From contig NZ_CP004078.1 of NCBI RefSeq assembly GCF_000612505.1, positions 5,206,570 through 5,270,569 of the forward strand: a stretch of DNA of 64,000 nucleotides. The letters run 5' to 3'. This document shows positions 41,153 to 43,565 of the stretch, one piece after another; positions within the stretch are counted from its first letter, which is position 1; each line of letters begins with the position of its first letter. The position numbers were made by a program, and so were the translations under genes. Origin of the DNA: Paenibacillus sabinae T27 (lineage in GTDB: Bacteria > Bacillota > Bacilli > Paenibacillales > Paenibacillaceae). The notes beneath the pieces were generated by a model that was not told the DNA's origin, did no database searches, and saw nothing but the letters and a program-made list of their open reading frames with translations.

Positions 41153-43099
41153 TTACGACCCTTCCTCCTCATCCTTTTCCTTGATAATCATCAAGCCTTC
41201 CACATGCTTTCGCCCCATCAGGTGGCGCTTCTTCCGGTTCTCCTTCGTTTCAAGCACAATATCCAGATCATAATCTTCCGGGTACAGCTCCTCTTTGGAT
41301 AAATACGGCTTCAGGCGTTTATGGTTAAACTGCATTTTATGCTTCTGCACCATGACGCCCACCATGCCTCTGGCATCCCGTTTCTCGTAGACGATTCCCG
41401 TCCTGCCCAGCGCTGTGACATAGACCGCGTCCCCGACTTCAAACACATGCGGCTGTTCCGGATGAACCTTCGCTTCTTTTTTCGCAGCGCTGCTGCCTTT
41501 TCCTGCTGTAGCCTTCTCTTCCTTTCTTCCTTCCCTATCATACCACAGGCGCATCTCTTGTTCGGCAAGCGGTTTCCGAGGGTGGCTGGCGGCAATTTGC
41601 CGCGAGCGTTCGATGACCTTTGCATCCAGACCGAGCTTCTCGGCGATCTGCAGCGCATAGCTGTGTCCCGCTTCTCCTATTGTCAGCTTATAGAGCGGAC
41701 GCAGCGTCACCGGATCAAACTCCATTCGGGCATTTTGAAAATCCGGCGCTGCCGAGGCAAATACTTTTATTTCATTAAAATGCGTCGTGACGATAACATT
41801 TGCTCCTCTGCGGCTGAGCTCCTCCAAAATGGCGATCGACAGAGCAATTCCTTCGCCCGGGTCCGTGCCCGCAGCCAGCTCGTCGATCAACAGCAGCACA
41901 TTGCGGCCTGCAGCCCGCAGCATTTCATCCACACCCTTCATTTGAGCGGAAAAAGTGCTGAGCGACTGTGTCAGACTTTGCCCGTCCCCGATCACGCTCA
42001 TTACCTCAGAAAATACCGGAAGCTGACTCTCTTTATCCGCCGGAATCAGCAGACCCGATTGGGCCATCAGCGTGAGCAGGCCTACCGTCTTCAGCAGAAC
42101 CGTCTTTCCGCCTGTATTCGGACCGGTAATCACAAGCGACTTATAGTCCAGACCGAATTCCACATCAATCGGAACCATGCCTTCAAGCAGCGGGTGCTTG
42201 CCTCCGAGAAGCCGCATATATCCCCGGTTGTTGAACGTTACCGCCCCCGCTCCTGTCTGGGCGGCATATTTGGCCTTGGCAAAAATAAAATCGTACACGC
42301 CCGTAATTTCAATATTCAGCCGCAGGGCTTCCTGCTCCCTTTCGATCAGTCCGGTCAGCATGCTTAAGATGATCCCCTCTTCCCGGGCCTCCTCGCTTGT
42401 CAGCATCTCCAGTTCTCCCTGCAACGCGGCGACCTCCTCCGGCTCCACATACACCGTCTGCCCGCTGGTGGACTGATCGAGCACTGAACCCTTGACCTGT
42501 TTATGGTACTCGCGCTTGACCGGAATTATATAACGGCCTCCCCGCATGCTGTACAGACTCTCCTGCAAAATGGACTGATGCCGCGACATGACACTCTCGA
42601 TTTTCTTCAGCAGCCGCTCCTTCGTTACTCTCAGACGTTTGCGCACCTTCTCTAGTCCCTTGCTTGCCCCGTCGTCAATGACGCCGAACCGGATGCAGCG
42701 CTCGATCTCCTCTTTCACCGTCTTCAGCTCCATCAGCGAGGCGGCATACGCTCCTATTCTTAGGGAAGCATCTTTGGAAGCCATATACTTGCGCAGCTGG
42801 GAGCAGCTGTTCAGGAATACGCTCACCGCGGTAAAATCCTGCTCATTGAACAGATAACCCGTCCTGAGCAGCGACATCACCCATTCAATCCCTTCTAATG
42901 AAGGTATCGGCACACTCGATCCTTTCATTAATAATTCCTTGGCCTCCGCCGTCTCTTGCACCGCTCTCTGCACAGCCGTTAGTTCAGTCATCGGGACAAG
43001 CTCCCGAATGAGCAACCTTCCGGCATAGGAGACGGCATAACGTTCCACTTCTTTCTTAATCCGATTGTATTCGAGCGTTTCCCGGCTTGGTAAATGCAT
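41153..43099 (-). CDS. MutS2-like ATPase without Smr domain
   Basis: 648 residues versus about 780 for MutS2. Present: helical lever/clamp region (about 1-300), MutS ATPase with Walker A GPNTGGKTVLLKTVG (about 330), Walker B NVLLLIDELAAGTDPGEG and THFNEI, a charged coiled region (about 480-540) and a KOW-like segment (FEVGDAVYVTALGRTGIVYE, about 545-600). The C-terminal Smr nuclease/collided-ribosome domain is absent; the protein ends in a lysine- and glutamate-rich tail. MutS2 in Bacillus splits collided ribosomes; this paralogue may act on ribosomes or recombination intermediates, unknown. GAGGAGG precedes ATG 43099, and an attenuator-like leader (43154-43565) lies upstream. Confidence 0.9.
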   Translation of the reverse strand: MHLPSRETLEYNRIKKEVERYAVSYAGRLLIRELVPMTELTAVQRAVQETAEAKELLMKGSSVPIPSLEGIEWVMSLLRTGYLFNEQDFTAVSVFLNSCSQLRKYMASKDASLRIGAYAASLMELKTVKEEIERCIRFGVIDDGASKGLEKVRKRLRVTKERLLKKIESVMSRHQSILQESLYSMRGGRYIIPVKREYHKQVKGSVLDQSTSGQTVYVEPEEVAALQGELEMLTSEEAREEGIILSMLTGLIEREQEALRLNIEITGVYDFIFAKAKYAAQTGAGAVTFNNRGYMRLLGGKHPLLEGMVPIDVEFGLDYKSLVITGPNTGGKTVLLKTVGLLTLMAQSGLLIPADKESQLPVFSEVMSVIGDGQSLTQSLSTFSAQMKGVDEMLRAAGRNVLLLIDELAAGTDPGEGIALSIAILEELSRRGANVIVTTHFNEIKVFASAAPDFQNARMEFDPVTLRPLYKLTIGEAGHSYALQIAEKLGLDAKVIERSRQIAASHPRKPLAEQEMRLWYDREGRKEEKATAGKGSSAAKKEAKVHPEQPHVFEVGDAVYVTALGRTGIVYEKRDARGMVGVMVQKHKMQFNHKRLKPYLSKEELYPEDYDLDIVLETKENRKKRHLMGRKHVEGLMIIKEKDEEEGS

Positions 43100-43153
43100 G
43101 TTCTTTCCTCCTCATTGGTTGTCGTCCGTCGGCCTATCGTTTTCCCACAACGC

Positions 43154-43191
43154 AAAAAAGGGCAAAGAATGCCACAGCGCATTCCTTGCCC
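43154..43191 (-). terminator. Leader terminator 2, 55 bases before the MutS2-like start
   Basis: Minus strand: GGGCAAGGAATGC, loop GCTGTG, GCATTCTTTGCCC, then T6: a 13-bp stem with one mismatch. Its position just before a gene in the same direction marks it as a conditional (attenuating) terminator rather than the end of another gene. Confidence 0.85.
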
Positions 43192-43249
43192 TAATCTTTA
43201 CACTGGTCCCTGTCTCTGGAGCCTTATCAGCTCCTTTTGTGGAATAAAC

Positions 43250-43277
43250 AAAAAAACCGCGCTGCAAGAGCACGGTT
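43250..43277 (-). terminator. Leader terminator 1
   Basis: Minus strand: ACCGTGC, loop TCTTGCA, GCGCGGT, then T7; one mismatch. It lies 150 bases upstream of the MutS2-like start and 60 bases before terminator 2. Confidence 0.75.
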
Positions 43278-43481
43278 CGTTTGCGTTGACGGGATAACAG
43301 CCGTAAAGAGGCGATGTTGACGCGTCGCGTGTTCTTAACTAAATCATTCACCCCAGGCACAGCTTTCCCCTGTCAAAAGACAATGCTAACTTACGCTTAC
43401 GCGGCACACTTAAATAAGCATGCGCTTAAAGCAAGCAAAAGAGCAGCGGTCTGCCAGACCTGAAAGGTGATATGAAATTGC

Positions 43482-43505
43482 TTAGTTAAGAACGCTCACC
43501 GACAT
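43482..43505 (-). CDS. 7-residue leader peptide MSVSVLN upstream of the MutS2-like gene
   Basis: GAAGGGG (43520-43514) lies exactly 8 bases before ATG 43505, an optimal ribosome site, followed by MSVSVLN and TAA. The last codons and stop (GTTCTTAACTAA, 43493-43482) are a perfect 12-base complement of TTAGTTAAGAAC at 43342-43331 further down the same transcript, so translation of the peptide would decide whether that pairing forms. This is the layout of drug-inducible attenuators. Too short for any homology support. Confidence 0.45.
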   Translation of the reverse strand: MSVSVLN

Positions 43506-43536
43506 CAAAATTTCCCCTTCGTTGTAGGATGGTTTA

Positions 43537-43565
43537 AACTTACTATATTTTTCCGGCTTCGTCAA
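43537..43565 (-). promoter_or_regulatory. Candidate promoter of the MutS2-like leader transcript
   Basis: TTGACG (43565-43560), 17-bp spacer, TAAGTT (43542-43537) on the minus strand. The -35 is good, the -10 weak; the AT-rich AAAAATATAGTAAG just before it may help. Confidence 0.35.

Follow-up and report, generated by a model that had tools for sequence, protein, structure and literature searches.

Background

The question raised by the MutS2-like gene of Paenibacillus sabinae T27 studied here is why it stands behind a long leader that harbours a seven-codon open reading frame (ORF) and two intrinsic terminators, and what such a leader would sense. The locus lies in a window of 64,000 nucleotides (contig NZ_CP004078.1, positions 5,206,570 to 5,270,569), this term denoting the whole stretch of DNA analysed. 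An earlier note, made from the sequence of the window, had described the leader as attenuator-like and had proposed that its target, a MutS2 paralogue devoid of the Smr domain, may be a ribosome-rescue or antibiotic-tolerance factor induced by translation inhibitors. The evidence compiled here makes it probable that the leader is a transcription attenuator responding to ribosome occupancy, which activates the gene of a predicted ribosome-rescue ATPase when a ribosome is slow or stalled on the seven-codon ORF. Through such a switch, translation stalled by drugs or stress would be coupled to genes with a predicted role in ribosome rescue. Among the papers listed in searches of the open-licence PubMed Central literature, none deals with the leader or the Smr-less paralogue, an absence that carries little weight.

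Results and discussion

Architecture of the leader

The features of the leader are compiled in Table 1. The short ORF MSVSVLN, its ribosome site and the 12-base complement described in the earlier note are all present: segment 1 (GTTCTTAACTAA) is exactly complementary to segment 2 (TTAGTTAAGAAC), with 139 bases between them, and their pairing is referred to as P1. The two terminators ahead of the gene (T1 and T2) were likewise found where the note had placed them and represent the two longest of eight terminator-like sites on both strands of the window (expected, 1.1). The folding energy of the leader is 8.55 standard deviations below that of shuffles. The leader is a real feature of this locus and not a chance observation.

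Table 1. Features of the leader and its flanking genes in the window
Feature	Position	Strand	Remark
Upstream gene, taken from its sequence to be rpsR	43937-43665	-	
Leader		-	about 440 bases, between rpsR and the MutS2-like gene
Promoter TTGACG-17-TAAGTT	43537..43565	-	TAAATT in relatives
Shine-Dalgarno sequence (SD) AAGGGG of leader ORF	43514..43519	-	pairs with 43312-43304 (tail2)
Leader ORF MSVSVLN*	43482..43505	-	seven codons
Segment 1, GTTCTTAACTAA	43482..43493	-	final codons and stop
Conserved post-stop element AATTNNATA	43471..43479	-	overlaps 5' strand of helix P1b, which extends P1
TTATTT, NusG-type TTNTTT pause motif	43412..43417	-	downstream of hairpin region
Helix P1b, 3' strand	43341..43354	-	
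Segment 2, TTAGTTAAGAAC	43331..43342	-	pairs with segment 1; contributes to antiterminator
Segment 2 tail	43313..43330	-	predicted on-state partner of T1 5' arm/loop
tail2	43287..43313	-	pairs with leader SD or with 43215-43187 (P3)
Intrinsic terminator T1	43254..43278	-	
P3, 3' strand	43187..43215	-	extends into T2 base
Intrinsic terminator T2	43159..43192	-	
Regulated gene	41153..43099	-	MutS2-like ATPase of 648 aa; putative KOW-like region, no Smr or coiled coil

The candidate promoter held as to its place, where a site scoring 9/12 was detected in all six relatives inspected; the window's own copy scores below 9/12. Of 121 leaders, 106 have a sigma-70-type promoter scoring at least 9/12 in the 125 bases ahead of the ORF (18.8 in shuffles), and in 82 of these 106 the -10 box ends 29-36 bases ahead of the ATG. 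The motif TTNTTT is present in the interval from the ORF to segment 2 in 85 leaders out of 122, versus 38.1 in mononucleotide shuffles. Its position behind a hairpin agrees with that in NusG-paused leaders, pausing itself being predicted; in the available sections of the respective papers, TTNTTT is reviewed as a NusG pause motif (PMC12288461) and reported for msrDL (PMC10314930).

Within the post-stop element the bases ATA are invariant in 46 leaders and the two bases preceding them are variable. Helix P1b explains the conservation of this element only in part. The 82-codon frame across both terminators, to which the earlier note had also drawn attention, exists (43360-43112); it was rejected as a second leader and is probably a chance frame outside the switch, since a spanning frame is found in only 19 of 75 leaders, with differing sequences.

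Distribution among Bacillota

Leader DNA matches were obtained from 41 of 60 relatives and are strongest over the leader ORF. The segment 1/2 pattern as used in the genome scan, the length limit of which is exceeded by the leader of the window itself, was detected in 170 of the 296 genomes scanned within the order (reversed-pattern control, 4) and, across the phylum, in 8 of 398 genomes, including G349 and G463 outside the order. Named genomes contribute at least 118 stretches with the pattern, and the genera among the matches listed are Paenibacillus, Brevibacillus, Bacillus, Neobacillus, Mesobacillus, Rossellomorea, Halobacillus, Petroclostridium and Saccharibacillus.

The P1 pattern was used to find most leaders, with a detection script that required a seven-codon ORF and an SD as well. 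Loci were also reached via the MutS2-like protein. A first set of 30 loci yielded a leader ending in VLN at 29 (missing at L019). A class-wide protein profile search revealed MutS2-like proteins in 60 of 259 genomes, which fall by score into one class of 40 and another of 20; 30 of the 60 genomes gave a locus directly, while for the other 30 a further 28 regions and G063 were added and G924 was left out. The VLN leader is present at 30 of 30 loci from this search and in 9 of 9 further regions, amounting to 65 of 66 distinct main-class loci reached through the protein once the three loci common to both sets are counted a single time. From 18 genomes picked for absence of the segment 1/2 pattern, 12 MutS2-like loci were retrieved, 3 of which have a VLN leader. 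Both the leader ORF and its pairing, the loss of which in close relatives would speak against the switch envisaged in the earlier note, are kept there.

Two kinds of target gene

A total of 215 matches to the ORF plus segment 2 were distinct by sequence, 28 of which were dropped because they read the palindromic pairing in antisense. A gene was assigned to one of the remaining 187 leaders when tblastn matched it to the MutS2-like or the BpsA-like query at E<=1e-4 and its estimated start fell 189-560 bases downstream of the leader. By this procedure, 177 leaders precede either a Smr-less MutS2-like gene (154) or a BpsA-like gene (23); of the other 10, eight have too little downstream DNA (<730 bases) and were set aside and in two a mobile element follows. 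The 187 leaders revealed no target gene of any further kind. Leaders fetched by pattern, i.e. blind to the gene, gave 128 assignments, 108 of them MutS2-like and 20 BpsA-like. The two mobile elements, named by eye, are a group II intron reverse transcriptase directly behind leader L085 and a transposase behind L093.

The BpsA-like proteins show a Pfam BpsA_C match in 3 of 3 cases and match solved BpsA structures (5xnc, E 1.9e-22), and the motifs GDDD and DPPYT, corresponding to GDDD and DPPY of BpsA, are kept in 8 of 8 sequences. The gene product is predicted to be an enzyme of the branched-polyamine synthase type. Within the order, 34 of 292 genomes have a BpsA-like gene, and 30 of the 34 matches were examined. 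The leader is located directly upstream in 15 of these 30 loci, and G106 possesses segment 2, T1 and T2 further up. Nine of the 30 loci are tandem, the BpsA alignment beginning 5-27 bases past the end of the MutS2-like alignment; eight of these nine genomes have the leader ahead of the MutS2-like gene according to the genome-scan pattern. In the ninth (G083, locus L341), 614 bases separate the leader ORF from bpsA, and all that is left of the MutS2-like gene in between is a C-terminal remnant, which suggests a possible route for transfer of the leader to bpsA. Five diverged, lower-scoring BpsA-like loci (L354-L358) have no leader, and the end of their upstream gene resembles, by eye, a nonribosomal peptide synthetase carrier domain.

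The Smr-less MutS2-like protein and a second subfamily

The sequences GPNTGGKT (Walker A) and DE (Walker B) of the MutS core/ATPase are invariant in 32 MutS2-like proteins. A profile of these proteins aligns to residues 1-683 of B. subtilis MutS2, leaving out Smr, and skips the larger part of the region that separates ATPase from KOW. Pfam MSSS, which bears on the putative KOW-like region, scores only 15.3 bits in the window protein and was not detected at E<=0.01 in two further members, compared with 53.7 bits in the true MutS2 of the genome. The latter is encoded by a separate gene (789 aa, L002) and has an Smr domain (92.2 bits), which Pfam did not detect in 3 of 3 MutS2-like members; the designation as Smr-less in the earlier note is thus borne out, with MutS2 homology ending past the KOW-like region. 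In place of Smr, a conserved C-terminal motif near ELYPxDYDFDIxFxSKExRKK...RKHVEGL is found (window 41153-41320), which L177, L228 and L229 lack. The nearest of 31 proteins aligned with the window protein is from Paenibacillus sinensis (73% identical, L197). By analogy, it is plausible that the Smr-less protein acts as a ribosome splitter, because B. subtilis MutS2 without Smr retains intermediate rescue activity and its KOW binds uS10, as stated in the available sections of PMC10897456.

Members of the lower score class (subfamily 2) have short ORFs of their own (MSEVVSA, VSAVGSK, MSVVGIN and others), which were picked by eye from a list sorted by pairing. In a test on 13 of the 19 leaders, five near-identical and one unclear leader having been dropped, pairing of their ORF codons with a downstream stretch beats pairing swapped between species (6/10000), and most single pairings are not significant alone. 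At several of the loci L310-L328, a GTAGGTATCTTCAT-like copy complementary to segment 2 is found close to the ribosome-binding site (RBS) of the gene; the swap test for a helix between segment 2 and the gene RBS in subfamily 2 gave 541/10000.

Compensatory pairing

Pairings were evaluated by a swap test that compares the native pairing energy with that of pairings swapped between species and ignores phylogeny. The anti-T1 pairing reached -10.89 natively and -10.03 when swapped (0/10000; 91 leaders), helix P1b -11.58 and -7.76 (0/10000; 122 leaders), and the pairing of the SD core with tail2 -7.93 and -6.49 (0/5000). Detection of T1 and T2 is wrong for a few of the 91 leaders (e.g. L028, L029 and L126); in the 48 leaders kept after filters, T1, T2, the pause hairpin, the pairing of the segment 2 tail with T1a and the tail2:spacer stem enclosing T1 each gave 0/1000. 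P3 gave 0/5000 in these 48 leaders, on which the SD:tail2 pairing was likewise evaluated. Control pairings yielded 6518/10000 (codons 2-4 with pre-segment 2), 3671/5000 (SD with the post-stop and mid regions) and a lowish 194/5000 (SD with the T1-T2 spacer). A hairpin P0 between the leader RBS and the post-stop region was rejected, native pairing being weaker than swapped in 10000/10000. Covariation, which the earlier note had proposed as a check on the leader, is seen in the advantage of native over swapped pairing for P1b, T1, T2, anti-T1, SD:tail2 and the T1-enclosing stem.

An RNAalifold consensus of 46 leaders recovered only P1, without covariation, because the leaders were picked by the P1 pattern and their interiors align badly; P1 is invariant in the main alignment for the former reason. 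Diverged leaders from the pattern-lacking genomes retain P1 with other letters, namely GTTCAGATCTC/GAGTTCTGAAC for the peptide MITGVQIS (0/200 shuffles) and GTTCTTAACTC/GAGTTAAGGAC for MFVGVLNS (1/200 shuffles). Among the other loci of these genomes, P1-type pairing was found at L260 (7/200 shuffles), L261 (11/200) and L264 (7/200); pairings at L259, L262 and L267-L270 are not significant alone, and none was found at L266.

Folding of the leader with and without a ribosome

The leader ORF overlaps by sequence one strand of the competing helix, its translation being predicted. Folding was calculated for 48 leaders with transcripts that stop ahead of the T1 3' arm and with masked bases representing the ribosome. 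In the free leader, 11.37 of the 12 pairs of P1 form, and the anti-T1 pairing amounts to 0.27 pairs. Masking of the whole ORF with its flanks (49 bases, more than one footprint) raised the latter to 7.76, with an increase in 47 of 48 leaders. A mask of 31 bases with the P site on codons 1-8 (codon 8 being the stop codon) resulted in at least four anti-T1 pairs in 46, 45, 41, 42, 40, 36, 34 and 22 of the 48 leaders, respectively (none without ribosome), the number of pairs amounting to about 6-8 on codons 1-7. For the window leader the corresponding pairs are 6.13, 8.31, 5.70, 5.15, 3.59, 0.66, 0.08 and 0.00, i.e. the gain is good only for codons 1-5 and weak at 6-8. A control with swapped arms, run for codon 7 only, still gave 3.44 pairs (at least four in 18/48) because T1 arms resemble one another, compared with 5.89 (34/48) for the native arms, which in this model points to a moderate native advantage.

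In silico, antiterminator and intrinsic terminator are thus mutually exclusive for T1, and for T2 this is not clear. P3 forms nearly equally with the ribosome and without it (18.02 and 20.27 pairs), and its contact with T2 displays no covariation (1526/5000, 2030/5000); P3 is therefore not supported as a clean T2 switch.

Alternative explanations

The leader peptide might be a specific arrest peptide that recognises a single ligand, be it a macrolide-type drug or a polyamine, and stalls the ribosome only at VLN-stop. This would agree with the near invariance of VLN in 122 leaders, most letters of which were, however, fixed by the search pattern, and with the retention of Ser2 through both codon families (TCN, 62; AGY, 13), which argues for some selection on the peptide. 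The same leader ahead of BpsA-like genes would be in line with a polyamine, and MsrDL stalls at its own stop codon according to the part of PMC10314930 available. On the other hand, VLN falls within the paired segment, and changes of pairing letters alter the peptide as well (VLI, VQIS, VLNS and VFN; VGS and VSA in subfamily 2). Moreover, all three stop codons occur among the leader ORFs, and predicted induction is lowest with the ribosome at the stop. An arrest peptide of this kind is accordingly considered unlikely. Since many codon positions give anti-T1 pairs, occupancy of the ORF rather than a special peptide is proposed as the signal.

The strong fold and several covarying helices would also be expected of a metabolite riboswitch operating without a sensing ribosome. 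Yet the leader of the window has no Rfam match even at E<=5, which rejects ydaO (RF00379), named as an alternative in the earlier note, along with all other Rfam families, and none was found for the leader at 18 further loci. There is, furthermore, no large conserved unpaired core beyond AATTNNATA and TTNTTT, and the ORF is retained at all but one of the distinct main-class loci found by protein, rendering a riboswitch very improbable. Outside the leader, the neighbouring DNA of relatives contains cobalamin (L234, 1397-1598), purine (L144, 6631-6731) and ZTP (L211, 2996-3078) riboswitches. A trp-like attenuator that responds to charged tRNA for Val, Leu or Asn could invoke the location of the VLN codons at the switch; as the leader contains no codon run, VLN is swapped out where the pairing changes and neither target serves the biosynthesis of these amino acids, it is the least credible of the explanations weighed here.

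Proposed mechanism and implications

The interpretation given in the earlier note is supported in part: its attenuator holds up, and drug induction and a rescue function of the protein would be predictions. The reading as a ribosome-occupancy attenuator, which draws on conservation, compensatory pairing and predicted ribosome-dependent refolding and dispenses with the 82-codon frame of the earlier note, would operate as follows. RNA polymerase would pause at TTNTTT, giving time for a ribosome to load on the leader ORF. If the ribosome finishes and departs, P1 would form and capture segment 2, T1 would form and transcription would end; the SD:tail2 helix would additionally close the leader's own ribosome site. 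A lingering ribosome would instead cover segment 1, allowing segment 2 and its tail to pair with the T1 5' arm, so that T1 is passed. The least certain step is the next one, in which P3 may weaken T2 at its base. Since the length of the ORF does not exceed a ribosome footprint, a ribosome at most of its codons is predicted to trip the switch; several inhibitor classes or stresses would suffice, and no special arrest peptide would be needed. The switch would yield the Smr-less MutS2-like ATPase, for which splitting of stalled ribosomes is predicted, and elsewhere the BpsA-like enzyme, predicted to make ribosome-stabilising branched polyamines, compounds described mainly from thermophiles in the available text of PMC12979288.

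A broader proposal, to which we would give somewhat less than an even chance, is a two-arm translation-emergency regulon of Bacillota in which one attenuator, acting as a peptide-independent occupancy sensor for a slow ribosome at almost any codon of its ORF and of any cause, governs a MutS2 splitter and a polyamine synthase. If true, many Bacillota would possess an intrinsic translation-stress response combining predicted ribosome splitting with predicted branched polyamines, the Smr-less MutS2 paralogue would acquire a testable role, and leaders would be shown to sense ribosome slowing without an arrest peptide.

Comparison with known systems

The following comparisons refer to those sections of the cited papers that were available. 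The accounts given there of the hflXr, msrD, tlrB, vmlR and toiL leaders do not mention these targets, the sharing of a leader by two genes, tandem terminators, an SD:tail2 helix or a weak peptide constraint. B. subtilis MutS2 (PMC10897456) has in common with the protein studied here the MutS core, the ATPase and, putatively, the KOW-like region, whereas the paralogue is devoid of coiled coil and Smr, possesses its own C-terminal motif and is encoded behind the leader. The toiL-topAI upstream ORF of E. coli (PMC12121999) resembles the leader in that a single ORF serves many antibiotic classes via ribosome position, as predicted here; it is Rho-dependent and translational, in contrast to the two intrinsic terminators of the present leader. 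tlrB/yxjB and vmlR of B. subtilis (PMC6851288, PMC12288461) share the NusG-dependent pause (here predicted), the leader ORF and transcription attenuation, and tlrB in addition SD sequestration. However, tlrB employs an RYR arrest motif and sequesters the SD of its target, whereas it is the leader's SD that is paired here.

Closest in kind are two further systems. The msrDL-msrD system (PMC10314930) likewise features a very short leader peptide, TTNTTT, an intrinsic terminator and a translation-factor target (here predicted); stalling is caused by the amino acids of MYLIFM, whereas in some of the present leaders the pairing is kept and the peptide varies. In hflXr/rli80 of Listeria (PMC6310831), a short ORF over an anti-antiterminator is combined with an antiterminator, an intrinsic terminator and a ribosome-splitting target, as predicted here; its ORF comprises 14 amino acids with an RLR motif and its target belongs to another family, compared with seven codons, no RLR, two terminators and a second target gene in the present case. 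The leader peptides have the consensus M-S/L-x-x-V-L-N, and no R/K-X-R/K arrest motif (RLR/RYR-type) was found in them; owing to this absence the leader, judged by its sequence, is kept apart from the RLR/RYR macrolide sensors. The best reading is an attenuator of the HflXr/MsrD kind without the RLR motif, controlling two predicted translation-protection genes.
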